This document shows, piece after piece, positions 2,218-48,710 of a stretch of DNA of 64,000 nt. The notes under the pieces were generated by a model that was given only the letters and a program-made list of their open reading frames with translations, had not been told where the DNA came from and searched no databases. Every line of letters starts with the position of its first letter. Position 1 is the first letter of the stretch. The DNA comes from Sinotaia quadrata (Eukaryota; Mollusca; Gastropoda; Architaenioglossa; Viviparidae), in the NCBI GenBank assembly GCA_028829895.1, contig CM054184.1, positions 27,477,701 through 27,541,700 on the forward strand. The letters are read 5' to 3'. The position numbers and the translations under genes are program-made.

Positions 2218-5200
2218 CTGATTGCAAACAAAGTTAAATAATGAAGAAGTGATCGCAAGGAAAGAATGATGTCATTTCTCACTAGATAAGATTAAAGTCC
2301 TCATGCAATGAATGTGTAATATTTCTGAGTGGAAGAAGTGAGCACTGTGCTTGTTTTCTTTGTCTCTTAAACTTTACTATTTACACTTTTTTCTTAATGC
2401 ATCCCTTGAACTGTAAATCACTATGTATCTGAACTATTTAATTAAAGCTTTGAAAACTACCAAACAATGAATGCATAGAGATAAAATAAATATACAAAAT
2501 TAAATAAGTAAATAAAAACAGGCAGCGTTTTTCGTAGTGATGACATATGGGTTAAATTAACAATGAATTATTTTTATTTTTACACGTTTTTGTACAATTT
2601 CAAATCAGAAGATATACCAGTTTTTTTCTTCTAAAACATACACTTAATATTAATTTATGATTATCAATAAAAGCCACTGAATATTATAGGTGCCTAAAAG
2701 AATGTCATAATTTTTTAATAAAGGTGTTAACTTCATGTCCATTTTGCAGTATACAATAGCACTGACATGTTAAACAAATGACTTAAATTACATGCATTTA
2801 TGTATTTAAAAATTTGTAACAGAATCCAATAACATGAACTGTTTTCTTATGTGAAATGAACTGTCTCCATTTCCTTTACAGGTCACTAGGAAGTTTCTGA
2901 ATTCCCAATTTATTCAGTTTGTTTTATTACCTGGGGAGAGGGGAGGGGTTGCTTTTGGTTTGCACCAATTTTGTACAAGATTTTATTTATTTATTAATTT
3001 ATTTATTGTAATCTTGAGTGAGATGAAACATCTACTTTGTTCTTTTATAATACTAATATTATTATCACCATAATTTAAAGAATAGAAAAGGGAAAATATT
3101 ACCTCATTTTGTGACATGTCCCTTATTTCTTGCCTTGTTTTAAGTTGTTCTTTGTAACGATTCTCAATTTCTGTAGTGAATCAAATGTTTATTATTTTCT
3201 TCATCAAAATAAAGAAAAAAACTAAAGGTGACAAATCTTAATTAAAAATGTCTAAAGAATACACATGATTCAGTGCAGTTTTGAGATATCTAAAGACAGT
3301 ATAAATATATCTAGCTACAATCAACATCAAAATCCCTATATCAGAAGTTGTCTTAATTAATCATAGTTTTTCTTCATAAATATTAATTAAAACAAATGTT
3401 ATAAATGAAGACAAAAAGATATGCTTTTTTTCAACCATGGTTTGTTGTATATTGTATCTTCTTGCAAACTATAGGTAAGATACATTTTCAAAAATTTTAT
3501 CAAGAAGATATTCAGTAACAAATGCTTTAAGAAGTAACAGTGTGGATTTAGATAATTCTTTATTAAAAGAAATAATTATTAATTGGTGTATACATGCATT
3601 TACTTACCATATGATTTTTTTTTAATGCCAATCTTGGAACTGTATTCAGCCTTTATGATGTATTGTTTACAATAACTTTATGCATGCATTAAATATATAT
3701 GAAAAGTGAACCGAATGAACAAGAAAATAAAAGATGTACATACATCTATTGTAAATATATTCATTCATATGACTGAATATGTCTATGTTAATATTTTTGT
3801 ATTAAAAAGTAATAGAAATACTTCATAAAATACACTTATAACTTTATTTATATTAGTTTACTATTTATTATTCACAAATGTATTTCCAAAATAAATATCC
3901 AGTGTTAACAATATTTGTATGTAAAATGCAAATAGCTTGAAATCCTGGGTGTTTTTTTTAAAACTTTAAATTTATTTTATTTTGCATTTTAGTTTTCTTA
4001 TGTTGCATATGTCACAATCTCTATCTTTGAATAAAGTGGCCATAGTTTGTAAATATAAATGTGAACATAATGAGAATTTAGCAAATCTAATTTATTTGTC
4101 TTGTGTGCTTTATTGTTTGGTGGTTGTTGCTAAATATAAAATGTATAAAGCATATAAAACAACTTGAAATATGCATAGATACTATAATTTTTATATGGTG
4201 CTGAAAATCATTCTTTCCTAAAAGTAAAACTAGTTAAGCAAACAAGAATGCTACCATGACATTATCTGGAATGTTAGAATTTTACAAGCGGTTCACCATC
4301 TAGAAGTGTATTAAAACACATTGCCTGGTATAACACTAAGAAATATATTAAAACACATTGCCTGGTATAATATCAAGAAATATATTAAAAAACATTACCT
4401 GGTAAAGCATCAAGAAGTATATTGAAAGCATCATCCCGATTCATCTCCTTTAAAGCTGATGCAACTTTATTAACAGTAGCATCAGCCAGCTGCATGTAAT
4501 GAGTGAAGATCAAAATTGTCTTTCTTTCACTCCTTGAATCGAAAACCTATGAGAGAAATCAAATGTATGATTGAGTTTGCAACATTTAATTTTGTGAATC
4601 TTGAACTTGCATACTCATTATTGTGATAAATGTTAAGAAAGTTCTCTTATTCTTACAATAAATGCAATCAGTGATAAAAAAAAAAACAATATACTTTTTT
4701 TGTTTGTTTCCCTAATTAAACCAAGCTGCTCAAGAATAGTTCTTAATCATTTTATAGCATGTCAGAACTAATTAAGATGAGTGCTTTGACTTTCTAATTT
4801 ATTTCAACTAAACTGAACTGTTAAAGATAAAGTATATAATACAAGTTATATTATTTGAATACACAATGCCTTTAATTTATAGAAATAATAACTTTATATA
4901 TGTAAAAACTGAAATGGTGTAAGGAGTTTATATAAGTTTTAAAAAGGAACAGTTCTAAATCAAGGTAAACATTAACAACACAAACATAGTATCTTATTAT
5001 CAGCAATGACACAAAATCTATCAAGTGCAATGTATCTCTTCAAATTTAAGTAATAAATCATGTATAATCTATATATTAATCTGTAATCTATCCAGCATAT
5101 ACTTTTTTCTGATTAATAAATTTTCTGTTTTTGTTTGGTTTTATAACTATTTAGTATTAACAATGGCAATCTAGATATGGAAGCTCATACTTTTCTTTAT

Positions 5201-8200: not shown

Positions 8201-10576
8201 TTTAAACATATTTATTTATTTAGATTGCTGTATTCCTTTGTTTATTTATTTTTCTGTTCTTCCTTTTCTGTTCTATCAGTCTACTATTTTTACTATTTTT
8301 TCTTCTTTGCTAAACCATTCACCTGCTTTTTCGACATGAAAATTCTGTCTTTTCTAAACCACTCATCTGTGTGTAGGCCTGTAGGGTCTATAATCTATAT
8401 AGAATCAGCTTGCTAGATCTGGATGCTTTTGAACTTTGCTAAACGGTAGCAATATGTAACAGGCTTGGGCAACACTTTGTACTGCTGTCACGATCCTGAG
8501 GTATGGTAGCCCACAGGTGACAAAAACTATAAAACTACCAAGGTGCGTGAGAAAAACATGCAGGCCGCACTATCACTAGCCCACAGGTGACAAAAACTAT
8601 AAAACTCCCAAGGTGCGTAAGAAAAACATGCGGGCCGCACTATTGGTATCACTAAACTTAAGTGGGGGCCACAAAATATCGTCATGCAGGCAGCAAATGG
8701 CCCACGGACTGCGAGTTTGAGACCCCTGGTGTTAACTATTAGCAAGTCAATCAGGAAGCAATCAGTGAATACTGTGACCAGTGTAAAATTATCAAAGAAC
8801 ACTATGACAAGAGTTAATAACTAAAGAATTCTGACCCTGGCGATAATCACTAATAATAAATATGTTCTGCAAATTAAAAAAAACCCCACTATTTGTATCT
8901 AGTTAATTAAGAAGACAAACTCATCTTTCAGCTAAAGAATAACACTTTTGTTTCTGTTTATCTAGTGTTAACTGCATACCAAAGAGTAACCCCCATTTAC
9001 TGATTTAGATGAATTGTGCATGCAAAACAAGAAGGTACTTTAATATTCTCTCCACCCTACTTTGTGAAATGTATTTTTTTTTCTATCCCTCACATTAAGT
9101 TGATTAACCTATGCTTACATACATTTAAACATCCCCTAATTTATAAAATTTTTAGTACTTGCATGTGTTCATTGTAAACTTTAAAAAAATAAATAAATAT
9201 ATTATATTAATACAGGTTACACTATATGTATCAGTTTTAATAACAGTTAAATCTATTTTATGTCCACCGTTTTAATTTGTGATTTAACAGTATGAAGAAT
9301 TTTCTAATTAAATTAAAACAAAATGTAATGCTTAAGAAACACATTAAATGATTAATGATTATTATAATGTTACTTAGCACTGAAGTGTTGAAGCATGTCT
9401 ATAATATATTAATAGTTTACCTATTCACATAATTTCAACTAATCAAACACGACTTTTCTATAGTGTGAACTCTAAATTAATTAACTTGTAACTATGCAAA
9501 CAGAAAATAAATGCTGGCTGGAGAGATAATAGTTTACTCTCAATAACATATTTAATCAAAGGGATACTGCTGTTTTGAACTACCTTCCATAAATACGAAA
9601 TGATGAGAGCAACTATCTTTTGACATCTTAGTTTCTGTGAGAATATGATATCACTTTAGGTCCAGTACCTTGCTTTAATAATTTTATGCAACACAAAATA
9701 CAATTATTAGGTATGTTATTAAAGTTTGCATTACTTCTAATACCGTTTATTAATTTTCTGTAAATTTTATTGTTATATCTGATTCTTCTATCCAAATATT
9801 TAGTAACCAATAAAATAATAATAATTTTATTTTTGTTTGTTAATGTTTAAAGTTTTAAAAAATACTCACATTGTTATTTTGCTTTAGTTAAAAAACATAA
9901 ACAAGAAAACCTTAGTCAAATGAGTTTTATTCACGCTGCTTTAGTTAAAAAAACATAAACAAGAAAACCTTAGTCAAATGAGTTTTATTCACGCTGCTTT
10001 AGTTAAAAAACATAAACAAGAAAACCTTAGTCAAATGAGTTTTATTCACGCTGCTTTAGTTAAAAAACATAAACAAGAAAACCTTAGTCAAATGAGTTTT
10101 ATTCACGCTGCTTTAGTTAAAAAAACATAAACAAGAAAACCTTAGTCAAATGAGTTTTATTCACGCTGCTTTAGTTAAAAAACATAAACAAGAAAACCTT
10201 AGTCAAATGAGTTTTATTCATGCTGCTTTAGTTAAAAAACATAAACAAGAAAACCTTAGTCAAATGAGTTTTATTCACGCTAATTTGTTCCCTTTGTACC
10301 AATTATTTATTGCAAATACTATATAGAAACTCTGTAGCAACATTTGAAATAATAATTATGCTTCATAAATCTGAAACTTACTAGGATATCTTCTGTGGAA
10401 AAGCCAAGTTTTTCTGCCAGTCCACGCCAGTCATTGTTGCTAACAGGGTTGATAAGATCCAGTTTGTTGGCTAGCTTTGTCCATGTTGTCATCCCAACAA
10501 ATCGCCACGGCAAAGGCTTACCCTCCTCAAGCATCTTGCTCCGCCCACCAGTAGCAACTTCCTTCTCTTTGTCCAT
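804..10576 (-). CDS. Gene 1: death-domain adaptor, Act1/CIKS-like paralogue, 3' end outside window (partial)
   Basis: Four coding exons were assembled by splice phase: 10382-10576, 4399-4546, 3103-3170 and 804-2217, about 608 codons before the gene leaves the window. Exons 1-2 encode a death domain. It has the core DWRGLAEKLGF at residues 49-59 and a last helix around VASALKEMNRDDAF, like UNC5 and MyD88 death domains. Exon 3 starts EIENRY, matching EIKNNF of gene A and AIESNY of gene B at the same phase-1 junction. Exon 4 is a low-complexity linker: His/Cys-rich first, then Ser/Asn/Gly-rich, with an IKQE SUMO-like site. No SEFIR or kinase is visible in the window. The exon-4 donor (AAAG|GTATAA) is phase 1, as are the linker donors of A and B, so a SEFIR domain is predicted to the left. 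All three frames upstream of the chosen ATG are stopped in the same exon. Family membership is inferred from exon structure and weak ungapped similarity; an IRAK-like or other death-domain protein remains possible. Confidence 0.7.
2218..4296. other. Gene 1 introns 2-3, otherwise empty
   Basis: Apart from exon 3, only AT-rich unique DNA with short simple repeats (for example TTTATTTATTAATTTATTTA at 2983-3004). No other gene is supported. Confidence 0.5.
3103..3170 (-). CDS. Gene 1 exon 3, short charged exon
   Basis: This 68-nt exon has acceptor CACTACAG|AA and donor AATGAG|GTAATA. It joins exon 2 in phase 1 and exon 4 in phase 0. It encodes EIENRYKEQLKTRQEIRDMS and a few more residues, a charged helical stretch. 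It corresponds to the first residues of the linker exon in genes A and B, so gene 1 has one extra intron here. Confidence 0.6.
4297..4430 (-). repeat. 37-bp tandem array copying gene 1 exon 2 donor
   Basis: About 3.6 units. The unit nearest the exon is the real exon end (CTTTACCAG|GTAATG). The two intronic copies at 4320 and 4357 read ATTATACCAG|GCAATG, keeping the exon flank but with GC in place of the GT donor. Part of a fourth copy is at 4297-4319. Confidence 0.8.
4399..4546 (-). CDS. Gene 1 exon 2, C-terminal half of death domain
   Basis: This 148-nt exon has acceptor CTCTCATAG|GTTTTC and donor TTTACCAG|GTAATG, with phases 0 in and 1 out, the same as exon 2 of genes A and B. It encodes VFDSRSERKTILIFTHYMQL and then the last death-domain helices ending in LDALPG. 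A 37-bp tandem array on its intron side copies its last ~30 nt and donor. Confidence 0.7.
4547..6001. other. Gene 1 intron 1, unique AT-rich DNA
   Basis: No coding, RNA gene or tandem array seen between exon 2 and the hAT element. Confidence 0.45.
6010..8728 (-). mobile_element. Decayed hAT transposon (GTF2IRD2/ZBED-like transposase)
   Basis: The termini are perfect 16-bp inverted repeats, CAGGGGTCTCAAACTC. They are flanked by an 8-bp target duplication with one mismatch: GTATTAAC at 6002-6009 and GTGTTAAC at 8729-8736. The transposase reads on the minus strand from about 7.88 kb (MKRKVGDEHRQFQEKW) to 6.08 kb. The N-terminal BED-type zinc finger region near 7.75 kb is frameshifted. A hAT core with DESTDVTDTAQLA lies at 7.3 kb, and the C-terminal hATC dimerisation region with CEKLFSTMNFNK near 6.2 kb. 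There are several stops and frameshifts, so it is inactive. A 70-bp direct duplication lies near the right end (8505-8645). The family was judged by recognition, not by search. Confidence 0.88.
6079..7930 (-). pseudogene. hAT transposase pseudogene
   Basis: Broken reading frames at 7294-7557, 6828-7186, 6403-6798 and 6079-6402 together read as one GTF2IRD2-like hAT transposase. Segments in order: N-terminus, damaged zinc finger, GKPFKDGEFIKTCMLQAA, AYSVAHDESTDVTD, PVLSDPKWLMDLAFLVDII, LCEKLFSTMN. Stops separate most segments. It lies in intron 1 of gene 1 on the same strand. Confidence 0.8.
8737..9880. other. Gene 1 intron 1, nothing seen
   Basis: AT-rich unique sequence. No supported feature. 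Confidence 0.45.
9881..10280. repeat. 57-58-bp minisatellite, 7 copies
   Basis: Near-identical units beginning GCTTTAGTTAAAAAACATAA and ending TTTATTCACGCT, about 100 bp inside intron 1 from the exon 1 donor. Copies differ mainly by A-tract length and one C/T, so the expansion is recent. Unlike other arrays here it does not copy the neighbouring splice site. Confidence 0.9.
10382..10576 (-). CDS. Gene 1 exon 1, N-terminal half of death domain
   Basis: 65 codons from ATG at 10576 to donor ATCCTA|GTAAGT, phase 0. The last 44 residues (LPWRFVG...STEDIL) align without gaps to the last 44 residues of exon 1 in genes A and B (IPARYIP...PEQWS). Shared positions include P.R, LA..LD, D(Y/W)R and AE. 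A candidate acceptor (CAGCTACAG) lies about 45 nt upstream of the ATG, so the exon probably begins with a short 5' UTR. Confidence 0.7.
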
Positions 10577-10619
10577 ACTTCTAATTGGGCAATGCTTCAA
10601 AGGAGTGCTCAGTTTTGAT

Positions 10620-12990: not shown

Positions 12991-13010
12991 ACAACAGTGG
13001 AAATTCTCAC

Positions 13011-16743: not shown

Positions 16744-16796
16744 CAATGAATTGCTATTTTAGTGACGAATACATTACAGTCGAACACTGACATTTA

Positions 16797-16890
16797 CATG
16801 TATTCTACTAGCTCTCCCAGTAACTCTTTGATAAGCTGTCGTTGACATTTACGTGTATTCTACTAGCTCTCCCAGTAACATTTCTGATAA
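16797..16890 (-). repeat. 56-bp duplication of the gene A coding 3' end
   Basis: TTACTGGGAGAGCTAGTAGA and the flanking bases occur twice, once in the coding end of exon 5 and once in the 3' UTR directly after the stop. Confidence 0.85.
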
Positions 16891-17154
16891 GCTGTCGCTG
16901 CCATTTTCCTCTGGAAATAAACTGAAAACCATTCTGTCGAGAAATGACGGTATGTGGGCACGATTTGTGTTCATGTTTGTTAACAACACAGGTCTGAAGC
17001 GAGTTCTCCCGTTCTTCGTCTCTGCTTGTTCCTTCTTGATTTTCTCATGCAGTGTGCAGATGATGTCCCTTTGAACTTCTGGCACTTCTTTATCTGTACT
17101 TTTTTCTGCATACTGCTGATAACCCGGACTCACAACCACAAGAATTTTCCAGGC
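16849..17154 (-). CDS. Gene A exon 5, second half of SEFIR domain and stop
   Basis: 306 nt, acceptor TTGTCTGCAG|GCC, TAA stop at 16849-16851. It encodes AWKILVVVSPGYQQYAEK, a long helix region, then FRPVLLTN and a tail ending LVEYT. The tail is shorter than in gene B. The last ~56 bp, including the stop region, are duplicated just downstream (16797-16850), consistent with a tandem event at the 3' end of the reading frame. Confidence 0.82.
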   Translation of the reverse strand, partial: AWKILVVVSPGYQQYAEKSTDKEVPEVQRDIICTLHEKIKKEQAETKNGRTRFRPVLLTNMNTNRAHIPSFLDRMVFSLFPEENGSDSLSEMLLGELVEYT

Positions 17155-20100
17155 CTGCAGACAAAATCAAACCCTCAGTCAAAGAGAGTTTTGTTTTGTT
17201 TTAATATTATTATTAGTTCCATATTTCTATATTATTATTAATGTTTTCTTACAACGTAAAAAATGAGTGCTTAGTTTCTATGTTATTATTAGCCTATTGT
17301 TTTGTAACTATATTATTATTAGTGTTTTGCTTATTATTATTATTGTTTTGTTTCAATATTGTTATTGGTGCTGTTTCTATATTATTATAAGTGTTTTGTT
17401 TCTATATTATTATTATTATTATTGTTTTGTTTCAATATTGTCATTGGTGCCGTGTTTCTATATTATTATTAGTGTTTTATTTCTGTATGAGTATTAGTGT
17501 TTTATTTCTATATGAATATTAGTGTTTTATTTCTATATGATTATTAGTGTTTTATTTCTATATGAGTATTAGTGTTTTATTTCTATATGAGTATTAGTGT
17601 TTTATTTCTATATGAGTATTAGCAGTAGCTCATGATATGTAAAGGAGTGAGTATTCCCAGAATGTCTATCAACAGAGTGATTGCTAGTTGCTATCCCACA
17701 AAAATCCCACACACAGACAAAATGTGTTCATTTACTCATGCAGGCAAGAGAAACAGCAACAATCATTATGTTCATTTGTCATTCAGGAGTAACATCAACA
17801 ATTACATGTCATTTGACTGAGGTTCTGTATCCCTGACAAAGCACATCACAATTACTTCACAATTACTAGTGCAGAGAAACATCAACAATTATTATGTTCA
17901 TCTGTCTTTCAGGCTTTGAGTGAGTTTCTGTGTCCTCAGTACAGTGCAGTAGAGATGTAAATAAAGATTTGTGGAGTGTTTGGGCACCCAGTACAGTGCA
18001 GTAGAGATGTAAATAAAGTTTTATGGAGTGCTTTGGTACCTAGAACAAATACAGTAGTTGGACTGAAGTTTTATGGAGTGTTTTGGTACCTAGAACAAAT
18101 ACAGTAGTTGGACTGAAATTTTATGGAGTGTTTTGGTACCTAGAACAAATACAGTAGTTGGACTGAAGTTTTATGGAGTGTTTTGGTACCCAGAACAAAT
18201 ACAGGAGTTGGACTGAAGTTTTATGGAGTGTTTTGGTGCCAAGAACAAATACAGTCAAACTGAAGGTTTATGGAATGTTTGGGTGCCAAAAACAAATACA
18301 GTGTCAGTTTATGGAGTATTTTGGCACCTAGAACAATGGAAATACAATTGTCATAATGAAGGTTTATAGAGTATTTGTCAAAATAAAGGTTTATGGTGTT
18401 TTATAGAATGAAGGTTGTGGCGTGTTTGTCACAATGAAAGTTTGTGGAGTGTTTGTCAGCATGCAGGTATGTGGAATATTTGTCAGAATGAAGGTATATA
18501 GAGCATTTAGGCACCCTGAACAATGCAAGTACAGTAGTACGATACAATATCACATCAATGTTTCACAATTAAAAATAATTTTGCTATTTATATAAAGTGG
18601 ATAAGATCAGGCTATCCCTAGTTTGGAATTATGGAATTCTACCAATATATCCAATACAATTTATGGGAATGCTAATTACATTTCATGTCCATATCTTGCT
18701 GGTATCAACAGTTATGTATTAGGGTCCTGTTGGACACTACTTTCGCATTATTAACTACCATTACTCGTCAGTAAACAGATTAGACTTTTAGGAATATCAC
18801 GATATAAAATTGTCTGTTAGGCATATCATGATATAAAATTGTCTGAACATTAGGCATATCATGATGCAAAGTTGTCTGTTAGGCATATCATGATCCAAAA
18901 TTGTCTGTTAGGCATATCATGATGCAAAGTTATCTGTTAGGCATATCATGATGCAAAGTTGTCTGTTAGGCATATCGTGATGCAAAGTTGTCTGTTAGGC
19001 ATATCATGATACACACTTGTCTGTTAGGCATATCATGATATAAAATTGTCTGAACATTAGTCATATCTTGATACAAAATTGTCTGTTAGGCATATCATGA
19101 TACAAAATTGTCTGAACATTAGGCATATCATGATACAAAGTTTTCTGTTAGGTATATTATGATACAAAATTGTCTGAACATTAGGCATATCATGATGCAA
19201 AGTTGTCTGTTAGGCATATCGTGATACAAAGTTGTCTGTTAGGCATATCATGATAAAAAAATTGTATCATTGAACATTAGGCATATCATGATGCAAAATT
19301 GTCTTTTAGGTATATCATGATGTAGTAGAATTCTGTTATGCATATACTGAATCATATGACCTACTAGGCAGCAATGTGATTCTAATTCTCTCTCACACAT
19401 ACAAACAAAATATCCGTTCTGGAAGAAAATGTAAACCCACTTAAAATTTGAAAAACAAATATAAACATCTAAACATAAGGTACATGGAATTGAAATATAT
19501 TTTACAGTGATCTGGTTTATGTAACCATATCGAGTAAAGTATTTTATAGCCTGCAAATATGATTATAATAAACTTGCCATAACTTGATTAATTTACAGAC
19601 TGATAATACTTTGATGAAATTACTTACACATAATACATAGATCAATATGTCCACACATAATATCCTGATGAGTCTGCCTGCACATAAGACCTAGATGAAT
19701 TTACTTCTGTATAATACCCTGATGAATGTGCTTGCACATAGCAACTTGATGAATGAATTTACTTATAATTGCAATAATTAGCATTATCAATGAAACTTTT
19801 ACATATTTATGCATTTCAACACAATCAATTTAAATCATATCTTTCAAAAAGTATTTTTCAAATAATGTTTACAGATTTTAACATTTTAATGCAATCCAGT
19901 TAAATCACATCTTTAAATAGTATTTTTTGCTGAAACGTTTACTCATTTTTGCATGTGGAAATTAAGTGAAATCATACCTTTAAGTAGCATTTTTCTATGT
20001 AACTTTGACAGGACTGTAAATCACAGTCAGGAAAGTTGTGCGTCTTCCCTGACAAGGAAATCAAGGACAAAGATGGAAAAACTGCCACATAAGATATGTT

Positions 20101-23100
20101 CTTTGTGTCCAGAAAACTGCATAAAGACTTCAGCTCTTCAGCCAATCTTTCAGGGTCATTTTTGTCACCACCCATAATCAAGACGAAGTGAAGTCCATCT
20201 GTTACAAAGAAGAGATAATTTGACTCTTTCTAGATACCTTAATACTTTATCAGTGTACAAATACGTGCAGATACTTCTAGCACTTTATCAGCCTACAAAA
20301 ATGTGTATGTAATCAAGATTCTCATATCTCGTCTATAGAATTTGTGGTTGTTATTATGATAGAGAGTTTTTTACTATTACTGATACAGGAATTGAGACTG
20401 CAAGTTTCTGTAGTAAGCTCAACAACCGCCAGTTCCGCACACAGGAAAAATATTAGAGGGAATGTTGCTAGTTAATGGTTATGATTATTATTAATCCTCA
20501 TAACAAGTTTTGAGAATCTTAATTTATGTTATTAATAATTCTCCAGTAGACACCAAACGTCTCTCTCACTTGGTGGATATGTGGGTGCTGCATACGATTT
20601 CCGTCTTTCACAACATTAAAGACAAATTATTAAATCAATAATCAAATTTACCTATATCAAATACAATCAAAAGATTATTTGACATCAATATTTCCACGAA
20701 ACCACATTCAAATAATTTCAATGCCTATACAATCTTATATCCTAAAACACAATTCAGCATAGATGCTTACAAAAAATATATGGTTCATTTCATTATATTC
20801 TGATACCTATATTTTGATGAATGTTTTGTAGTGGTACTGGAAGTGTATATTATAGAATGAAAAGTTGCATAAATAATACCAATACACAAGAAGGGAAAGA
20901 TGCTACTCGATCAAGCTCAAATAGACCTATATCATTACTCTCTACAATAGGAAAACACGAGAAACAACAATAATTAATAAACGAATACAACACCTCTTAA
21001 AAACAGCTCTTTGATAGCCCGAGCATGTGCAATCCTAAATACACTTCACCATAACGGACAAACTAAGAAACTATTCGACTTCCTCCGGACTAGACTAACT
21101 AACTCACGTCCAACCACACTCTTACTTGATATAACCCAAGCATTCTATACAATATGGCATGAAACAATCCTATTCAAAACACTTAAACTATTCACAACAG
21201 CTGCATTTTTCACACGCAGGACTTTCTACACAAAAGTAAACAGCACAGACTACACACAAAGAGAGAGAAAAACTACGAAACACAAAAAAACAATCACACC
21301 ACTAATACATTGGGCAGGAAACAGGAAACAGGAGACAGACAAAACTAAAGCAATAAACTTCTCACTAAAATAGCAATGCCAAATTCTTAAGTCGGATATG
21401 AAGGTTTCAATGTATTTGATAACTAGAAGTCATCGCATCTCAAATATAAGGAAATAATCTTGGCAAACTGGAATGAAAAAATACCTTTCAGGCTCACCTG
21501 AAAAGATAATACCTTTTGGGCTTACCTGTTAAAGAAAAATCCTGTTCGGATCATCTGTAAAAGAAAAAGCCTTTTTGGCTCACCTGAAAAAGGAAAAGTC
21601 TTCCTGTTAAAAATAGAAATGCTTACTTGGCTTACCTGGAAAAACAAAAACCTGCCTGGCTTACCTAGAAAAGGAAAAGCCGTCTTGGCTTAACTGGAAA
21701 AGGAAAAACCTTCTTGACTGACCTGAAAAAGAAACAGCCTTTCTGGCTTACCTGGAGAAAGAGTTTCTTTTATCTGCAGTATGAGGGGCTCTTGCACAGA
21801 ACTTGCGTCAATTGGCTTTTTGACTGAGGTCAGGTGACGTGTATCCCCAGGCGGAATGTAACAGGAAGACATAAGATCATCTTGCCGTACGTTATCTGAT
21901 GACAGACCATCTGTAGATAGCGTGTTATACGACGACAAACCATCCCTAGGTGGTATGTTAAGTACTAGACCATCCCTAGATGGTATGTTAAGTACTACAT
22001 CATCCCTAGATGGTATGTTAAGTACTATATCATCCCCAGGTAGTACGTTAAGTGTAAGACCATCCTTACTTGGTATGTTAAGTGACAGATTATTTAGCTG
22101 TGACATAAGTTGATGATTACCAGGTGAGATCAAGGCATATGGGTTCGTACTTGATTTATCCATTAGGTAGCTATTAGCCGATGTTATCTGTTCCTTACAA
22201 CTATCAGCAGGCTGTAAGAAAGTGGGTTGGAGGTGCTTCGTGGACCTGAACGTCTGACGATCTTTGTTCAGTACACATTCGTTTGACGACAGGCCAAACG
22301 GGAATTTTCCTGCCGGTTCTGGACCTCTTGGATCGTAGGAAGTGGACTGCGCGACCCCGGTGCCACAATACTTTGACTCCACACTTGCTTTACCAAAATA
22401 ATTTAATGTCAAGGACCTCTCAGTGTCAGCAATGTGGCTATTAACTGAAGCATATATCTGTGGTCTTTCTGACCTTTGACACTGGTCACACTCACAAAGA
22501 GTGGCCTCGCTGTTCTCTTGTCCCACACGGGTGTCCATCCGGAAATTGTTCTTGATTTCTGGAAGGTTAGAAACATGAAAATATCATGAGTCTAAAGATC
22601 TTGAAAATTGAAATAGAGCAAGGTAAAGACTGAAATAGAGCAAGTTAATGGACTGAAATAGAGCAAGTTAATGGACTGAAATAGAGCAAGCTAAGGGACT
22701 GAAATAGAGTAAGTTGAAAAACATGTCACTGAGCAATTTACAAAAATAAAATAGAGAAGATAAAGGATTAAAATAGAGCAAGTTCAAAGACTGATAAAGA
22801 ACAAATTAAAGCAACGAAGATAAAATATTTGCAGTAGAACAAATTAAAACTAAGATAAAATATTTGCAGTAGAACAAATTAAAGCAACTAAGTTAAAATG
22901 TTTGTAGTAGAACAAATTAAAGCAACTAAGATAAAATGTTTGTAGTAGAACAAATTAAAGCAACTAAGATAAAATGTTTGTAGTAGAACAAATTAAAGCA
23001 ACTAAGATAAAATGTTTGTAGTAGAACAAATTAAAGCAACTAAGATAAAATGTTTGCAGTAGAACAAATTAAAGCTACTAAGATAAAATGTTTGCAGTAG

Positions 23101-26100
23101 AACAAATTATAGCAAACTAAAGTTAAATTGTTTGTAATAGAATAAGTTAAGGGACTGAAATAGAACAAGCAGATTAAGTTAAAATGTTTGCAATAGAGTA
23201 AGTTAAGGGACTGAAATAGAACAAATGAAATCAGACTTTAAAATGTTTGCAATCGAATAAGGATTGAAATAAAGTTAAAGGACTGAAATAGAATGAATGA
23301 AAGCAAAGTTAAAACGTTTGCAATAGAATATAGATTAAGTAAAGGGACTGAAATAGATCAAGTAAAAGGATTTCAAAAAAGTAAAAATAAAATTTTAAAA
23401 TAGAATACACAACAAATTTAGTCATTAAAATGCAATTCAATCAATAAAGTTTTATTTTATAATTACTACGCCCGAGTTTCTTTATAAAAAAATATATCTT
23501 AATGAGTTATTTCTCTCAGAATCATGGCATCTGTTCAAGTGATTAACAATAAATACTGAATTTGCAAGGCCAAATGAAAATATTCTGTAAATCATTCAAA
23601 AAGAAAAATAAGAGAGAATAGATTGTGTTGTGTCTCCAAGTTTTGTATAATACAGACTAATTAATAAGAATGAATATTTTTCGTGACATACATTTATAGT
23701 AAATAAATGTCTGGTCAGTATTTCATAATCCAGAAGCTTGAAGTTTTAATAACAGTCAGTACCAAGTATTTCCTAACCCAAACAACAGTCAGTACCAAGT
23801 ATTTCCTAACCCAAAGACTTTAGACTTTAACTATAGTCAATAAACAGTGTTTCCTAACCCAAAGACTAAAGTTTTAACAACAGTCAGTATGAAGTATTTC
23901 CTAACCCAAAGACTAAAGTTTTAACAACAGTCAGTATGAAGTATTTCCTAACCCAAAGACTAAAGTTTTAACAACACTCAGTATGAAGTACTTCCTAACC
24001 AAAGACTAAAGTTTAACTATAGTCAGTAAGCAATATTTCCTAATTCAAAAACTAAAGTTTTAACTATAGTGGATAATCAGTATTTCATAATCCAGAGAAA
24101 AAAGTTTTCACTAACATCAGCGCACCAATATTTCAAACTAAATGCTAGATTTTAACTTCTAGAAGCCCGGTAAAGACAACAACAAAAAAAGTACACACAC
24201 CTGGCACATGCACATAGCACCTGGCTTGTAAAAAGACATGTACACAACACCTGGCTTGCAACAAAACATGCACATAGCACCTGACTTGTAAAAAGACTGT
24301 ACACAATACCTGGCTTGTAAAAAGACATGTACACAATATCTGACTTGTAACAAAACATGCACGTAGCAGTTGGTTTGTAAACAAGACATGTACACAACAC
24401 CTGGCTTGTAACAAGAACACAGCACCTGACTTGTAAAAAGATAATTATATAGCACCTGTCTTGTAACAAGAACACAGTACCTGGCTTGTACCAAGAAAAA
24501 TGAACAGCATCCAGCTTGTAACAACTACACAGCACCTGGCATGTAACAAGACAACTACACAGCACATGCATATAACAATTATGGCTTCCATGATACCACT
24601 ACCAGTGCTTTATACACTACAGAGTCAATCTGGACTAATGTAAAAACCTTTGAGTGCTGTTACAATTACTTACTTGTAAGTGTCAATTATTTCATATCCT
24701 TATCTTCAAAATCATGACTGTTTAGTATACTGTGAAGGATTTTGACAGATGTTACAATCACCTGGCAGGTATTTGTGTCAGTCAAATGAAGCTGACTATT
24801 GAGGCAACAAGTATTTTGGCTCATGGCCTTAATAAGTTAGAATCATATTACTAACCTTTACTGCCAGTTATCAATGCAGCACGAAACATCCTCTGCATAT
24901 ATTACTGCTGAAGATATGTGGTTTTGCTTGCCTAACTAATATTATATTCAAGTTTATCTCTTGACATTAACCATAATTATTTTATATTGTTATGTTTCAC
25001 TTATGATATTATGTTATAATGATTTCACTTATGATATTATATTATAAAATGTATAATGACCATGTAAGTAAGGGTATACTGTCAGAGAACACATGAAGAT
25101 GAATTCTTAGTCCATGTGTATTTTACTGGTAGATTGGAACCTTATCTGAGACATTGATTCCATAAGCATTGAGCCTTGAAGCAATGTCAGAATTTAACCA
25201 CTTTATCTTGGATGTTGACTTTGATGAGTATTGAACTGCAAAGCAACACCAGAGCAGAACATTCCCCAGGGGCCTAAGACTGGTTCAAAAAGCCACATGT
25301 GCATCTACTACAACATTCACTAGGACCCTAGGCACACATTAGGTGATCCTAAGTTAAGTAACTATAAAGCCAACAACTGCACAACTTCAGTCAACTTCTC
25401 TCAGACTTATTTTAGAGTTCACTCAGAAACATTTAGTGTTCTCTTATAAACTCATTTATAGTTCACTCATAAGAACAAACCCAATAACTACTTTTACAGT
25501 GAAATAGGACTCAAACGAACATTCTCTTACATCACCACAGGATCATGATTATGCACTATAAACATTTATAAACTCTAATTGTAACTGTTTAACTACTCGC
25601 TATATGTAACCATACTGTCTTATGTTATTTCTTGTTGAATACATTTATTGATTTATTGTTGATACATAGACAATCATGTTAGTGTGACTCACATGTTATA
25701 TGTTGTAGCCTGTCACCTGTATTTACTTACTATCCAGGCTGTATTTATCAAGGAGCTTGGGCTATCTACTAGAACTATCACTCTTCTATTCTAAATTATC
25801 TACCATTCATCTTTCTAATACAAGTGGCCAGCCAGAAGATATGTGTTGTGGATTAGCCTAAGGTAAAAGGCAGCCCAGGGTGGTGGAAAATTAACATATT
25901 GCTAATCTCCCAGCAAAAAGTCATACATTTTAAATGTTTTACCTGACATGTATTTGTCAATGATTGGAGGTCCTCGCGTCTTCATTTTTTGGAGTGTTTG
26001 ATACATTGTAAAATGTTTTGACATATGTTACAATTACCTGTCATATATTTATTTATCAATGATCTGAGGTCCCTGAGTCTTCATCTTTTGGAGTGTTTGG

Positions 26101-28218: not shown

Positions 28219-28319
28219 GTCTGGAATTTCGTCAGGCCCTCTCTTGTCGTGTCAGGTGCTTTCTTATGGCGCCTGTCTGCAAGTCACAATCACCGGAACA
28301 CACTACTTAATAGTCTACA

Positions 28320-35745: not shown

Positions 35746-35808
35746 CTTTACACGCCGCGGCCTGCCATTATTATGAAGAGTTGAAGACCATTCGCATAGC
35801 TCACTTAC

Positions 35809-37389: not shown

Positions 37390-37399
37390 TTGTATGGTC

Positions 37400-39660: not shown

Positions 39661-39674
39661 GTATATTTCTTTTT

Positions 39675-41518: not shown

Positions 41519-44500
41519 CTGAAAAAAGAGCATGACAGAAGGCATTTTTAAGTCATTAGGACATTTTAAGTCGTTAGGACATTTTAAATCATTAGGACAT
41601 TTTAAGTCATTAGGACACCTAAAATAGTCAGTTACATTTTTTATTAACTGATTTTTCATAGAAGAAAGCAACACAAAAACAAAATAAGGCTTGGTTGATC
41701 TTTGTGAATTTCTTTTAAAATGGATTGCTATTCACTTTATAATTTCATCAATTTGCAACAGTGGCGAATATATACAAAATCAATAAATACAAATTGTATT
41801 GGACATTTATTCAAGGTAATTTGTTATGTAGAACAGCAAAATAAAAATTCTTGTTTAAATGCCTGATTTAGAAACATACCTTGAAATAGCATTCTTGAAT
41901 GAAAGGCTCAAACTCTTGATATGCTTTCCACTGTTGGGAGAGAGGCATTTGGTCTGATGGGAACACTGCTACACATGTAATATCCTTCTGGTGCAAAAAG
42001 TCACACAGAGAATGTATTTCACCTGACAGGCCCTCAGGATCTTTCTCATCACCCCCCACAATCAGGACATGTGGTGGAAGATTGTCTGAAAACAAAGAAG
42101 TTAAAACATAAACACAGGTTGTAATGGCTCAAGGAATTTTAAAAAATTCACTTCAATTACAAAGTAATTGTGATGCAATTCTAAACACACCTTTAGGATT
42201 ATTTTGTACACTGAAACATATCCTCAAGTCAAGAATATTGTTACTGCATAAAAGTTTGGCCTTTTTGTCATTACCCTCAAAAACTCTCAAGTGAATCACC
42301 TTTAAACTATCTGGACTACTAATTAGGGTGTGACAAAACCCTCATGGGAACATCTAGCATCTGTTCTTGTGAAAAAAACAAATTGTATACAAGCCCTATT
42401 GAATGAAATCATGAAGGAGTATAGACGAGTTTGTTTGTTAAATCTGGGCTTAACACATGATAACAGAGAACGGGCATATAATCAATATACAGATGTTTCA
42501 TGCAGTATACTTTTGTTTATTCAATAAATATTACCTGTGTACTAATGTTTAAAAGACTGTATAAATATCTATACAAGTACAATCAATATATATAAATATA
42601 GATTCTTAAAACTCAACAGACTATACAGCCAGTGTAATCAGGATTTTAATCTTTAAAAGTCTGTATATTTATACAACAATGTAATAAGATTACTACCACA
42701 GCCAAAGTAACTATCACAAGGTTACTACCATAGCCAAAGTAACTATCACAAGGTTAGTACCATAGCCAAAGTAACTATCACAAGATTACTACCACAGCCA
42801 AAGTAACTATCACAAAGTTATTAGCATAGCTAAAGAAACTATTACAAGGTTACTACTATAGCCAAAGTAACTATCACAAGGTTACTACCATAGCCAAAGT
42901 AACTATCACAAGGTTACTACCATAGCCAAAGTAACTATCACAAGGTTACTATTATAGTAAAAGTAATTATCATAAAGTTATTAGCATAGCTAAAGAAACT
43001 AATACAAGTTTACTACTATAGGCTAGCCAAAGTATCACTTGGTTACTGCCATAGCCAAAATAAATATCACAAGGTTATTACTATAGTCAAAGTAACTATC
43101 ACAAAGTTATTACCCTAGCCAAAGAGACTTATCACAAGGTTTCCACCATAGGCATATAACTATCAGATAGTATCTGCTATAGGTAAAGTAACTATCATAA
43201 GGTTACTACCATAGCCAAAGTATCTATCACAAGGATATTAACATATCCATAATTATTACAAGATTTGTACTATGGTCACTGTAACATGCACAAGATTATG
43301 ATCATAGTCAGTGTAACTACTGCAAGATTATTATCTTCGCCAGTGTAACCAACAAAAGATATTACCATAGCCAAAGTAACAATTATAGAATTATTATTCT
43401 CTATAACCAGAATAACATTATTCTACAACCAATATAACTAGCACAAGATTATTACCACAGCTTAAGTAACCAACACATACTTATAACCATAACCACTGAA
43501 ACTTGTATAAGATAGTACAAGAGCCTCTTATAACCAGCACAAAATATTACCAGAACTACTGTAACCAGCACAAGATATTACAGCTACTGTAACAAGCAAC
43601 ATTATTACCAGAGCCATTGTAACCAGCACAAGATATCACTACAGCCACTGTAAAAGCAACATTATTAACAGAGCCATTGTAACCAGCACAAGAACTACTG
43701 TAACCAGCACAAGATATTACTACAGCCAGTATAACAAGCAATATTACTACCAGAACGACTGTAGCAGCACAAGATATTATCAGTGCCAGTATTTAACCAG
43801 TTCAAGATATTACCAGAGCCAATGCAACCAGCAATATTGCTACCCAAGCATGGTCTTAGGAAATCTGAAACTCCCCCACCCATTTTTATTCAACTAAAGT
43901 GAATAAATCTATCGATGTTTGTTTATGATGAAGAGAATGTTACAATCATAAATTACAACACGCAAACAAAAAGTCAAATAATTTCCAAGATGCAATCATC
44001 AGAGACTTTGGGATTCAAGGATTTTACTATTCTTGAATTTGAGGATCTGAGTAGTTATTAGTACTGAGATCAAGAGCAATTTCAAAGACTGCACTGGGAT
44101 AGGGGCTGCACACACCTATTTGTAATTTTAATTCTGATAGATATTACTATTTCTCTTGTTGTAATTTTAATTCTGATAGATATTACTATTTCTCTTGTTG
44201 TAATTTTAATTCTGATAGATATTACTATTTCTCTTGTTGTAATTTTAATTCTGATAGATATTACTATTTCTCTTGTCGTAATTTTAATTCTGATAGATAT
44301 TACTATTTCTCTTGTTGTAATTTTAATTCTGATAGATATTACTATTCCCTCTTGTAGTAATTTTAATTCTGATAGATATTACTATCCCTCTTGTTGTAAT
44401 TCACACTTTATTAGATTTAGTCTAACAGATTTATGCAAAGTGTACTTATATCAGATGTCAGCGATGCAAAATCTGACATTGCCTTATAAATCTAAGGAAT

Positions 44501-47500
44501 TTTAATCCATTAATGTCTTTGATTTTGTTCTGCAAGTTAAAATGAGTGTGTCCTAGATATCTTCAGGGTACGACTATAACCCTTTAGAAGTTCAAAATCC
44601 CTCAAAGTCCCTGCAATCTGATCTGAGTCAATGTACATTTCTAAAGACCCAAAAGTACACTCATACTGATAGAGTTAATGAAGAACTTACTCATTTCTTG
44701 TCTCATAAAACTTCTGGTAATATCCATATCCTTCTGTCTGCCCACCAAATGCACACCCAGCCATCCGCCTGCATGCATATATGCATACAAACATAATTAG
44801 AAGTAAAGATTGTATTTAGTTTGAAGTTTTGTAGAAATAAAACTGTTGAACATTACATATATGCATACAAACATAATTAGAAGTAAAGATTATATTTAGT
44901 TTGAAGTTTTGTAGAAATAAAACTGTTGAATATTACAAATATTTCAGAATTAAAGTGAGAGTTTTTAGATTAAGATTTTGCAAGAAAATGTCTTGTGGCA
45001 TTTCATGAATCTATAACCATTGCTGAACTTACTTTCACTAAAATATTTTCCTCTCTTTTCATGTCTATTGTACTGGCATGAATCTATAACCAATGCTGAA
45101 CTTACTTTCACTAAAATGTTTTAATCTCTTTTCCTGTCTATTGTACTGGCAAGGTTTGGGTTGCGGTGAACTGTAACCATGCCCAGTTTGCTGGCAACAG
45201 ATTGTGTTGTCACTGGCTGGCAAGTATTCTTGGCAGTAGTGTTTTCCTGATGCAGGCAATCTCACTGGCTCCTGACTATAGATTTGAGTGGAGGTCTCTG
45301 GAAGAGTAATGACACTGTCACCATCACGCAGAAGTTCTGGCAAAGCAGTAAGGTTTCCTACTGAGTTCTGGTAATTGGGTGGATCAGGACACTTTGAAAC
45401 TGAGTTAGGATTGCTAGTTACCATATTCTGGCCATTGTTTAGATCTTGAGGAATATTAATATTGTACATTTCTAAGCTTGAATCACTATCCATGATATTC
45501 TGGCCATTGTTTTGAGCTTGAGGAATGGCAGTGCTATATATTGTTGAGTCTGAAATATTATCCATTATACTTTGACGACTATTTGGAACCTGAGGAGTGG
45601 CGATATTTTTTGTTGCTAAGTTGCTACTCATTCTATCCTGATCCTTGTCCCTCAGATAGTTACTTTCTATTGCTGGAAAAAAAATAGAAGAAAAGAATAC
45701 ATATTGCTGAAGAAAAGAACACATATTGCTGAAGAAAAGAACACATATTGCTGAAGAACACATGTTGCTGAAGAAAAGAACACTTATTGCTGAAGAAAAG
45801 AACACATATTGCTGAAGAAAAGAATACATATTGCTGAAGAAAAGAACACATATTGCTGAAGAAAAGAACACATATTGCTGAAGAAATGAACACATATTGC
45901 TGAAGAAAAGAATACATATTGCTGAAGAAAAGAACACATATTGCTGAAGAAAAGAACACATATTGCTGAAGAAAAGAACACATATTGCTGAAGAAAAGAA
46001 TACATTTTGCTGAAGAAAAGAACACATATTGCTGAAGAAAAGAATACATATTCCTAAAGAAAAGAATACATATTCCTAATTTGAAGAAAGAATGCATATT
46101 GATAAAAAAAGAAGAAAAGAATACATATTACTGAAAAAATAGAAGAAAAGAATACATATTGCTGAAAAAATACAATTAAATAATGGTAACAGCTATACAT
46201 CCACATCACTAAAATAATGATACACAACTTTTCACACAGAACTGCAATGCATGACTTCATATATTTAGCACTGAAATAGTATTGCATGGCTTCACATATA
46301 CAGCAACGAAGCAGCATACATCACTTTACACTCACAGCACTAAAATAGCAAAAAATAAATTTACACCCATAGCGAAACTCGGACACAATCATTGCAATGT
46401 AAAGTGAATCCACTACCATAGCAATGGAACTCTGACACAATCATTGCAATGAAAACTGAATCCACAGCAAGAGCAATGAAACACTGACATAATCATTGCA
46501 ATGAAAGCAAAATCCACAACCATAACAATGAAACCCTGACACAATTATTGCAATGAAATTGAATTCACAACCATAGCAATGAAAGTGAATGTACAAAACA
46601 TAGTACTGAAACCCTGACACTATCACTGCAATGAAACTCTGACACAATCTTTGCAATGAAACCCTGACACAATCATTGCAATGAAACCCTGACACAATCT
46701 TTGCAATGAAACCCTGACACAAATCATTGCAATGAAACCCTGACACTATCATTGCAATGAAACCCTGATACTATCATTGCAATGAAAATTGACTGCACAA
46801 CAGTTGTGGTGAGGTACTAATAATGATTGTTGTATAAAAACATTCAATACAAATCTAGAATTATTTTGCTGAAAATCAAATGTGTTTACCTGGCAGGTAT
46901 TTATCAAGGATTTTAGTTCCTCGCAATTCCATTTTCTTGAATGTTTCATATACTGTGAAAACAGTGAAACTGTCGTCATGTTTATGCATCAGCCATTGCA
47001 TGACATTATAAAAGGAGCTTGTAGAACCTTGACATTTCTGAGAATCCAGGTACTAAATAAAACAAATAATATCATCATATAGATAAATAGCTATTTTAAA
47101 ATAACATTTTTTGGTAAATGTAGTTAAACAGTAAACTTCATCTTAAATATTCACAAGATATTTAGAAAATAAAACATGCATATCAATAATGTGCATAATT
47201 TATATATGTGTGTGTTTGTGTATAGCCTGCATAAGACTTATACTAAAAATAAACATTTTTAAGTTGCAAACCTTAACAATTATTGTATCAAAATCAACTT
47301 CCTTGTAGCTTCGTTTTGTTATTACATAAAAGCAACAACTAAGTAAACAGTTTGCATAGTAGCATGTCATAATCATTTGCTGGTATGACCTTATACATAA
47401 TAGCAATCTTTACAACTTAACAAAACAAATTACTAGCTTAATTTTAAAATAGTGCCAAGTATCATCAATTAAATAACATATGAATAATTATTTAATGAAT

Positions 47501-48710
47501 AAAATATATTAATGTCTACATAATAAAATATTATGCTTAACATTTGCAACTATAAGATAGTAGTGGCTGCCAAAACATTTATGACTGAAATGATCATAAA
47601 GACATTTATGAATCTCCACATGGCCAAAAACTCTATAAGTGTGCATCTCTACTTGAATGTTGCCCTACAGTGTGCATCTCTACAAATACTCTATAACTAT
47701 AATGAGCATTTCAAATTGTTTGTTGCTCTATAAGTGAGCATTTCAAATTGTTTGTTGCTCTATAAGTGAGCATTTCAAATTGTCTGTTGCTCTAAAAGTA
47801 TGCATCTCTACAACAGCTCTACAACAGTGCATCTCTATACAACTGATAGGTGTCCAAGTATGTATCCCTATATGACTAAGAGCACTACAAGAGTACATCT
47901 CTGTACCAGTGACAGGTGTCCAAGTATGTATCTGACAAGACTTACAGCTCATAAAGATGCGCAAGTACATCAATATGGTGAGAAAAAATATAAAGGATGA
48001 AGAAAGAATTTTTTTAAAAATAAGAAAGTCATGAAAGCACTTGCTGATTGCTTCATGAAAAGCAACCCCTTCACACCTCTCTATATGGAAGGTGTGAGGT
48101 CAGTGACCCCTCAGTTCTAGTCTAGTTTTTATTCCTAGCTGCTTGTTTTGTTTATGCTTGGAACATTGAGACTTTTTACACTTTTCAGTATATAAGCAGA
48201 CTAAGATTCTACTTCCCTCAACCCTACCTGAAGGGGCAAGTAGATCTAATACTCAAAATGTTGCATTGAGTTATCAGATAACTAAACCCTACCATAAACC
48301 AAACCTTGTGGTCAGCTCTTCATTAACCAACCAAACCCTTAATCAGGCCAAATAAACAAACATACATTCTCTCTAATTAAAGTAAAATTGAATTGATGGA
48401 CTTCCAAACAGATTTATTCTTTGACATATTCTAGAAATTGTGACAATTTATTATGTATCATAAGCATGACACTCACTTGCCATTCAATTGTCATAAGCAT
48501 GACAGTCCTGCATTCAGTTGTCATAAGCATGATACTCACCTGCCATTCTTTTGGGAGAATTCCATTTAGTTCAGCAAAGTGTCGATAGTCCTTGCCTGGC
48601 ATGTCTGATTTTGGATCCATGGTGATAGCCAACTCTTGAATGCATATTGTGGGAATGCAGCTAGCGGGAATTCCCTTCATCATCTGCTCTTTGTCATACT
48701 GGGAGGTCAT
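41174..48710 (-). CDS. Gene B: Death-SEFIR adaptor, TRAF3IP2 (Act1/CIKS)-like
   Basis: Five coding exons (48540-48710, 46890-47052, 45106-45672, 41880-42085, 41174-41518) give about 483 residues with phases 0/1/1/0, identical to gene A. Residues 1-111 are death-domain-like. About 190 linker residues follow, with imperfect repeats around IPQ..NNGQN(I/M)(M/V). The SEFIR domain starts at LPPHVLIVGGDEKD and continues ARKIVVAISPGYSEYAEE, HQKIIRQLHENMKEE and TRLIPVLLT. The VAISPxY box, the H.K.I.R.M..E helix and the (F/L)IPVL strand are the strongest match in the window to vertebrate Act1. Act1 couples IL-17 receptors to TRAF6 in the cytosol; the same role is inferred. No signal peptide or membrane helix is seen. 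It is the tidiest of the three copies. Confidence 0.85.
41540..41625. repeat. 18-bp repeat just after gene B exon 5 acceptor
   Basis: Four to five units around TTTTAAGTCATTAGGACA in intron 4 of gene B. An 18-bp period keeps the frame open, producing a false N-terminal extension. Confidence 0.85.
41880..42085 (-). CDS. Gene B exon 4, first half of SEFIR domain
   Basis: 206 nt, acceptor TTGTTTTCAG|AC, donor TTCAAG|GTATGT, phase 1 in and 0 out. It encodes DNLPPHVLIVGGDEKDPEG, a helix with SLCDFLHQKD, strand TCVAVFPS and FIQECYFK. It is collinear with gene A exon 4 but five codons shorter in the loop before the last helix. Confidence 0.85.
42690..43830. repeat. ~32-bp degenerate minisatellite in gene B intron 3
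   Basis: More than 20 units around ACTACCATAGCCAAAGTAAC and TATCACAAGGTT, grading into ~25-bp units around AACCAGCACAAGATATTACC after 43.4 kb. Confidence 0.85.
44125..44940. repeat. 39-bp and ~85-bp repeats in gene B intron 3
   Basis: 44125-44400: seven units around GTAATTTTAATTCTGATAGA. 44775-44940: two copies of an ~85-bp unit with CATACAAACATAATTAGAAG. The stretch between holds no feature. Confidence 0.88.
45005..45140 (-). repeat. ~73-bp duplication of gene B exon 3 end and donor
   Basis: The last ~45 nt of exon 3, the donor (TTTTAGTGAAA|GTAAGTTCAG) and the following intron are present twice. Both donors are intact. Use of the distal one would bring in a stop. Confidence 0.88.
45106..45672 (-). 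CDS. Gene B exon 3, linker
   Basis: 567 nt, acceptor TTTTTTTCCAG|CAATAG, donor TAGTGAAA|GTAAGT, phase 1 at both ends. It is Asn/Gln/Ser/Pro-rich. Three imperfect 25-30 residue repeats contain NNGQNIMDS-like cores. Reading past the donor meets a stop at 45065, which supports the donor choice. The long plus-and-minus reading frames to its right (to 46.1 kb) are minisatellite translation, not protein. Confidence 0.75.
45673..46165 (-). repeat. 22-bp array of acceptor-like units before gene B exon 3
   Basis: About 18-20 units in gene sense read TTCTTTTCTTCAG|CAATATG. The true acceptor next to it reads TTTTTTTCCAG|CAATAGA. Every unit is therefore a pyrimidine tract plus CAG followed by exon-like bases. 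Confidence 0.9.
46390..46790. repeat. ~25-bp minisatellite in gene B intron 2
   Basis: Degenerate units around TGCAATGAAACCCTGACACA and ATCAT. No splice site copied. Confidence 0.85.
46890..47052 (-). CDS. Gene B exon 2, death-domain C-half
   Basis: 163 nt, acceptor TTTATTTAG|TACCTG, donor CTGCCAG|GTAAAC, phases 0 and 1. It encodes YLDSQKCQGSTSSF through ILDKYLP and aligns without gaps to gene A exon 2. Confidence 0.85.
47600..47960. repeat. Degenerate repeats in gene B intron 1
   Basis: Units around GAGCATTTCAAATTGTTTGT and GCATCTCTAC. 48.0-48.43 kb shows nothing further. Confidence 0.65.
48440..48560 (-). repeat. ~32-bp repeat copying gene B exon 1 donor
   Basis: Three units on the plus strand, CATAAGCATGATACTCACCT plus GCCATTC. 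The one at 48.53 kb is the exon donor (TGGCAG|GTGAGT). Of the two intronic copies, one keeps GTGAGT and one is damaged. Confidence 0.8.
48540..48710 (-). CDS. Gene B exon 1, death-domain N-half
   Basis: 57 codons from ATG at 48710 to donor GAATGGCAG|GTGAGT, phase 0. Length and most conserved positions match gene A exon 1. Upstream of the ATG a TTTCAAG or TTCATAG acceptor is possible, so 5' UTR exons are expected to the right. Confidence 0.83.

Follow-up and report, generated by a model that had tools for sequence, protein, structure and literature searches.

Does a tandem repeat that copies the edge of its neighbouring exon mark the birth of an intron, a set of decoy splice sites, or simply a genome prone to duplication? 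This question is raised by a stretch of 64,000 nucleotides from the gastropod Sinotaia quadrata (contig CM054184.1, positions 27,477,701 to 27,541,700), referred to here as the window, which is animal DNA with three related minus-strand genes, A, B and C, whose spliced frames are clean. Minisatellite arrays copying an exon's own edge were confirmed at splice donors and not at acceptors, so that a preliminary description placing them on both sides is confirmed in part. They are probably edge-anchored minisatellites of a duplication-rich genome, in which the exon edge would serve as a selected "unit zero", the newer copies lying nearest the exon and the older ones decaying inward.

Gene models were assembled manually, on sequence only, with open frames and splice signals as guides. 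Genes B and C each join five exons into a full frame with a single stop, whereas the last two exons of gene A (A5 and A6) fall just outside the window. A fourth tandem paralog, gene D, lies just past its high end (window coordinates 84638 to 66545). An array was defined as a 48-nucleotide self-match against the next or previous 350 nucleotides with a score of at least 20, and junctions were tested with 24 exon and 24 intron nucleotides (maximum 48) at the same threshold. In the letter-shuffled window, none of 8040 positions reached it, the best score being 19. The native DNA is rich in repeats, with 37% of sampled noncoding positions inside an array, 29% with a downstream copy and 7.1% in a first unit, and Tandem Repeats Finder (TRF) returned 152 rows across the 64 kb. 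As about 37% of noncoding positions belong to some array, adjacency of an array to an exon is weak evidence by itself. Eight hand-picked 10-kb regions of the genome have 12-54% of their positions in arrays, or 12-39% without the 54% region, which holds 4361 N that match each other. Regional unevenness is strong, arrays making up 0.2-14.5% of each of four 10-kb pieces that flank the window at its low-coordinate end, against about 37% within the window.

In the window, the junction-centred test is passed by 7 of the 12 coding donors (A2, B1, B2, B3, B4, C1 and C3), by one of two stop codons (B5) and by none of 13 acceptors. Adding A5, A6 and gene D brings these figures to 7/17 donors, 1/4 stops and 0/19 acceptors, and donors differ from acceptors by Fisher's test (0.0023). 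Over the 11 introns of genes A, B and C, array coverage at donors is 0.41 in the last 30 exon nucleotides and 0.60 in the first 30 intron nucleotides, compared with 0.10 in the last 30 intron nucleotides and 0 in the first 60 exon nucleotides at acceptors. Arrays do approach the acceptors of B3, B5, C3 and C5, to within 15 to about 50 nucleotides, but stop short of them.

A rather unlikely alternative is that donors are not preferred in any way: with about a third of the DNA in arrays, some donors would simply fall in one, and exon-edge copying would be what any array overlapping an edge displays. Several results lean this way and thus weigh against a special role of donors. Under plain local coverage, 4.8 donors are expected where 7 are observed, which is not significant (P 0.16). 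The arrays are unevenly shared among the genes, with 1/5 donors in gene A, 4/4 in B, 2/4 in C and 0/4 in D, and gene D, the only set that played no part in forming the idea and was examined with the threshold already fixed, has arrays over 40% of its intron DNA. Raising the threshold to 22, 25 and 28 leaves 6, 5 and 4 donors (acceptors still none), and at 28 with a doubled first-unit, or seed, rate P is 0.07. For the zero among 13 acceptors, P is 0.0096 when coverage is the reference and 0.35 when the seed rate is, and the absence of acceptor arrays is therefore firm only as a contrast with donors. Moreover, genes B, C and D are related, so that the sites are not fully independent, and the arrays number seven, two of them with little exon sequence.

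What speaks against mere overlap is the position of the donors within the arrays. A random noncoding array point usually lies in a middle unit, and only the 7.1% in a first unit stand where a donor must. With this rate applied gene by gene, 1.16 donors are expected against the 7 observed (P 5e-5), and doubling it, as slower loss of likeness to a conserved exon might require, gives 2.3 (P 0.004). For the window alone, P is 0.035 for coverage, 0.019 for a circular shift of the donors and 5e-6 for the first unit. The 0/19 acceptors also speak against overlap without preference.

The arrays derive from the edges that they adjoin. When the last 24 exon nucleotides were compared with their own following DNA, with the other introns of the set swapped in as controls, the A2, B1, B2, B4 and C3 donors and the B5 coding end beat every control by exon letters alone. 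The B3 and C1 donors did not rise above the swapped introns in this test, and their units take in only about 10 exon nucleotides. An introner, a mobile intron-like repeat, would be expected to place related sequence in many unlinked introns; here, edge 24-mers with strong matches of their own match the other introns of the locus less well, a comparison made within the introns of this locus. A single repeat common to these introns was accordingly rejected, each array copying its own exon edge. Nearly all the copies tabulated are 55-97% alike. Tandem repeats are hard to assemble, and false copies or copy numbers could in principle result, but copies that are mostly not near-identical, in an assembly with eight contigs of 54-156 Mb, make an assembly artefact extremely unlikely.

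These results bear on several claims of the preliminary description. It had listed eight donor-side sites, and the junction test upholds those at 4.3, 19.9, 21.5, 26.0, 27.0-28.07, 45.0 and 48.5 kb, as well as a coding end at 16.8 kb (B5), which also beats its swapped-intron controls. The eighth, at 36.5 kb, could not be confirmed. By eye, its unit looks like the sequence following a possible donor near 36.78 kb; none of the coding exons of genes A to C has a match there, though a noncoding first exon would escape such a comparison. That an array stands beside an exon in all three genes is true of the seven donors named above but not of A1, A3, A4, C2 and C4 (5 of the 12), nor of A5 just outside the window or the four donors of gene D. 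Its view that unit size differs from site to site (37, 29, about 98, 29, about 70, about 31 and 73 nucleotides, from A2 to C3) and that no one repeat is involved holds, since the arrays at seven donors and one stop codon arose from their own exon edges as separate events. The acceptor-edge copying it proposed has found no support in the 13 window acceptors. At 35.9 kb, the shared part of the unit is an intron-like end, without the exon start that had been proposed, and no coding exon of genes A to C matches. At 45.7 kb, the unit has pyrimidines, CAG and CAATA in common with the C3 acceptor, with a score of 14/48 that 39% of random noncoding positions reach; judging from these letters, the array could be acceptor-derived with only 5 exon nucleotides.

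The proposal that the locus displays stages of intron gain can be confronted with the age of the introns. Genes B and C have 52% identity over their first 120 residues, gap-free across introns 1 and 2, and 43% identity over their last domains, with intron 4 at the identical residue. Because the two genes align without gaps across them, introns 1, 2 and 4 are older than the B-C split. Exons 1 and 2 of gene D end and begin at the same places, and D has the same number of introns; B, C and D all have an intron 3, inside a linker that does not align. The arrays, each copying its own exon's letters, therefore postdate introns 1, 2 and 4 and arose separately. No split exon was found in B or C, and the units span existing donors rather than new intron ends. 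Serial duplication across AG/GT would supply each unit with splice signals, and indeed GT is retained in 25/37 B1 and 7/10 B3 units, the latter also having a pyrimidine tract and AG. Nevertheless, with dated introns common to the paralogs and exons unsplit, the making of new introns, which has also been put forward for the amphioxus arrays called mirages, is very improbable here. Intron gain by tandem duplication was rejected on the intron-position test at introns 1, 2 and 4, and it is not supported wherever the introns could be dated.

The copies next to exon B2 are ordered by age. In the last 66 nucleotides of this exon, B2 departs from a base common to C2 and D2 at 11 sites. All 11 are modern in unit 1, which lies nearest the exon, whereas unit 2 is ancestral at 6 and modern at 5. 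Farther into the intron, one relic unit has 4 ancestral, 3 modern and 2 other bases among 9 covered sites, and the other has 1, 1 and 1 of 3. Private changes at invariant sites amount to 1/34 in unit 1, 3/34 in unit 2, and 10/37 and 3/16 in the relics. In a simpler count, the differences of unit 2 are the C2 base in 7 of 11 cases (P 2.4e-5, or 1.8e-4 with transitions allowed), against 0 of 2 for unit 1; the signal of the relics is weak when counted in this way (P 0.07 and 0.04, or 0.08 and 0.12). Judged by their letters, the older copies look like a layered fossil record still carrying an earlier version of the exon, rather than like intron birth. Units 1 and 2 have the same base at -62, unit 1 being otherwise exon-like, which would fit exchange between the exon and unit 2.

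A trend with distance is also visible at B1, where TRF reports several overlapping arrays. Identity to the exon unit declines from 0.97 at the near end to 0.43-0.79 in the last twelve units, and its correlation with distance is negative (Spearman -0.66, P 7e-6). The ancestral A of site -7 occurs in 0/8 near, 2/10 middle and 8/18 far units, and at site -19 the ancestral base occurs in 0, 0 and 3, the modern base being found in most. Each of the two B4 copies has the ancestral base at one of three covered sites, at -7 in both. Strong layering is nonetheless found in one array, B2, and a number of observations limit its reach. Layering is seen at just one of the two B1 sites whose outgroups agree, and the outgroups disagree at column 12 of the B1 unit, the column that changed most. 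A private T common to B1 units 1-8 indicates that these spread from a unit inside the intron instead of being copied anew from the exon. Outside B1 the trend with distance is not clear, P being 0.37 at B3 and the nearer copy being the less similar of the two at C1. In addition, array units were cut by script over stretches of analyst-chosen length, which makes unit numbers approximate.

If the copies were kept as decoy donors or as binding sites for U1, the GT should stand out among the old units. Some features point that way: 19/37 B1 pieces keep GT with a U1 match at least equal to that of the real donor, and the donor G is kept at 0.67 in the older units, compared with 0.52 for exon G/C, or 0.61 once two columns with a change of state are set aside, values that are not far apart. 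In the 26 older B1 units, however, the GT pair is kept in 58%, which ranks 12 of 28 neighbouring pairs, A/T is kept at 0.84-0.85 in exon and donor parts alike, and GT is kept in 0/4 of the pieces into which the A2 array was cut. The decoy GT of B1 thus shows no clear sign of selection. Decoy-site selection, which the preliminary description had offered as an alternative, was rejected on the rank of GT, and the maintenance of the copies as decoys is highly unlikely. Reading through a donor meets an in-frame stop within 3 to 59 nucleotides at 6 of the 7 donor sites and after 123 nucleotides at C1, and at 5 of the 7 the stop precedes the first decoy donor. At C1, a decoy donor 63 nucleotides into the intron (48540-48477) keeps the frame and would allow a possible 21-residue exon extension in a death-domain-like region.

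Donors might also start duplications more often, through a mutational hotspot linked, for example, to transcription at the exon-intron step. Coverage is indeed 0.53-0.62 in the first 100 intron nucleotides compared with 0.37 over all intron DNA, and GTAAGT occurs in 11/202 array units where 5.0 are expected with permuted letters (5/89 permutations were as high). This excess comes partly from the very arrays in question, however, and GTGAGT, AGGTAA, CAGGTA and AGGTGA show no clear excess. With no array at the four donors of gene D and the same duplication at the B5 stop codon, which has no splice site, a donor-specific hotspot is improbable.

In the account of edge-anchored minisatellites, a tandem duplication would happen to span a donor or a stop codon. 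A donor-spanning duplication can survive because its first copy leaves the exon and the donor intact. The exon edge would then become unit zero, held by selection while all other copies are free, and slippage or exchange near it may keep adding newer copies beside the exon, the older ones being displaced into the intron, where they would decay. Splicing would have to keep to the donor nearest the exon in spite of the equally good copies downstream. At an acceptor, a spanning duplication would leave a functional copy upstream of the genuine site and would presumably be removed. The B5 stop codon shows the same survival, which suggests a rule that "the first copy still works" rather than one specific to splicing. 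The preliminary description came nearest to this with its slippage-prone genome that happens to keep exon-edge copies, a formulation lacking the donor-only pattern and the age layering; taken as a whole, its interpretation is partly supported.

A bolder version, possible but doubtful, is that introns may lengthen from the 5' end as the exon edge is added again and again, far copies keeping older coding states so that ancestral edges could be read from one genome, and that donors would tolerate this and acceptors not, as splicing commits to the first donor made. If layering were to hold genome-wide, intron 5' ends would be an ordered record of past exon sequence, with coding change visible without outgroups. 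The donor-only pattern would likewise be a natural experiment on the choice of the spliceosome among near-identical donors in a row. The locus also carries a warning, as tandem arrays with AG/GT should not be taken for intron birth without an intron-position test.

Arrays and coding exons of the window (positions in the window; all on the minus strand)
Feature	Position	Strand	Description and evidence
A2 donor array	4297..4425	-	unit 37 = last 27 exon nt + 10 intron nt; TRF 3.5 copies including the exon's own
B1 donor array	26981..28068	-	unit 29 = 21 exon nt + GTAAGTTA; 37 pieces over 1060 nt
B2 donor array	25939..26202	-	unit about 98 = 66 exon nt + 32 intron nt; two units
Decayed relic of two B2 units	24655..24790	-	about 1.4 kb into the intron; score 96 against best 55 of 100 shuffled introns
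B3 donor array	21453..21761	-	unit 29 = about 10 exon nt + 19 intron nt; 10 pieces, 7 with GT
B4 donor array	19791..19996	-	two diverged copies of exon edge + donor; weakest, score 21/48
B5 coding-end duplication	16787..16906	-	last coding nt + TAA copied to the 3' side; passes threshold
C1 donor array	48456..48549	-	unit about 31, 2 copies
C3 donor array	45003..45148	-	unit 73 = 43 exon nt + 30 intron nt; 1 copy
Array of pyrimidine + CAG units upstream of C3 acceptor	45687..46074	-	TRF, about 18 units
A1, gene A exon 1, coding	10382..10576	-	frame joins; donor without edge array, junction test score 8
A2, gene A exon 2, coding, holds part of death domain	4399..4546	-	frame joins + Pfam Death 3.2e-09
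A3, gene A exon 3	3103..3170	-	frame joins; donor without array
A4, gene A exon 4	804..2217	-	frame joins; donor without array
B1, gene B exon 1, ATG at 28218	28048..28276	-	frame + B/C alignment
B2, gene B exon 2	26137..26299	-	frame + B/C alignment
B3, gene B exon 3, with 30-bp coding repeat	21752..22558	-	frame + TRF
B4, gene B exon 4	19978..20198	-	frame + B/C alignment
B5, gene B exon 5, including stop codon	16849..17154	-	frame
C1, gene C exon 1, ATG at 48710	48540..48757	-	frame + B/C alignment
C2, gene C exon 2	46890..47052	-	frame; donor without array
C3, gene C exon 3, with 72-bp coding repeat	45106..45672	-	frame + TRF
C4, gene C exon 4	41880..42085	-	frame; donor without array
C5, gene C exon 5, including stop codon	41174..41518	-	frame; stop without array

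The four paralogs form a cluster of genes with a death domain and a putatively SEFIR-like last domain, perhaps Act1/CIKS-like. The death domain of gene A is recognised by Pfam (3.2e-09), while gene C yields Death at 0.011 and, in its last domain, TIR_2 at 0.04, both below the cut-off. A PDB sequence search with this last domain gave three weak matches (best E 0.63), and genes B and C, the two included in a search of 5.8 billion proteins, had no relative there. Scans of Rfam and for tRNAs returned no matches. The coding exons B3 and C3 contain tandem repeats of their own (21939-22083 and 45423-45569), with TRF units of 30 and 72 nucleotides; these are multiples of three, unlike most junction units, which fits selection on the reading frame.

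Broken pieces of a presumably hAT-like transposase lie near the exons of gene A (window 6000-8700 and the adjoining low-coordinate flank), two window pieces having been scanned with no Pfam match above the cut-off. Inspection by eye of an AT-rich stretch showed some four occurrences, in both orientations, of a short element rich in GC whose core resembles GGCGCTTTCGGCTTCCGCCGCTTTCGCG (at 33.8, 33.6, 33.5 and 31.8 kb). The genome assembly comprises 984,265,383 bases in 26 contigs, of which those labelled C1 to C8 span 54 to 156 Mb and 12 others at most 0.52 Mb. A myosin-head profile search of this genome returned 80 exon matches, and at 65635096-65638030 of contig C6 profile positions of about 121-152 are matched at three adjacent places, as expected of alternative muscle myosin exons.

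Among known systems, the mirages of amphioxus are the closest kind and, as far as the available excerpts of their description go, the same kind of object as the arrays described here (PMC3087553). In both, the unit spans an exon-intron boundary, which in the present genes is the case at the 5' boundary for 7/17 donors and at the 3' boundary for 0/19 acceptors, whereas amphioxus mirages are known at both boundaries (PMC3087553; PMC3902484). The same excerpts give a site-dependent unit length of 10-160 bp, with many units retaining AG/GT, and their authors already proposed intron gain (PMC3087553; PMC3902484). Reverse transcription PCR in amphioxus suggested normal splicing (PMC3087553). Unit length depends on the site here too, from 29 to about 98 bp. 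The present arrays differ from mirages, so far as those excerpts describe them, in being restricted to donors, in an intron-position test that argues against gain and in age layering relative to paralogs. Undisturbed mRNA splicing and a haplotype-variable copy number also belong to the definition of a mirage, while the arrays of S. quadrata are known from one assembly and computed frames. Amphioxus genomes are smaller and have more chromosomes than this 984 Mb genome with eight large contigs.

Intron gain by tandem duplication has been described for the potato RNA-dependent RNA polymerase gene (RdRp), where splice signals reportedly lie within the duplicated unit, as they do here (PMC4974935). 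In that case an intron arises, whereas here the dated introns predate the arrays and no new intron is seen. Human genes in segmental duplications also have internal tandem repeats, with units of minisatellite size, at their exon-intron boundaries; in the excerpted account these change transcripts and are tied to new introns, while the present arrays are known from DNA alone (PMC2812944). Literature searches through the titles and abstract openings of an open-licence library turned up no account of age layering or of a donor-only bias. In polar minisatellites, new variation is concentrated at one end of the array. The arrays of S. quadrata are alike in this one-ended variation, but their active end is the edge of a coding exon under selection.

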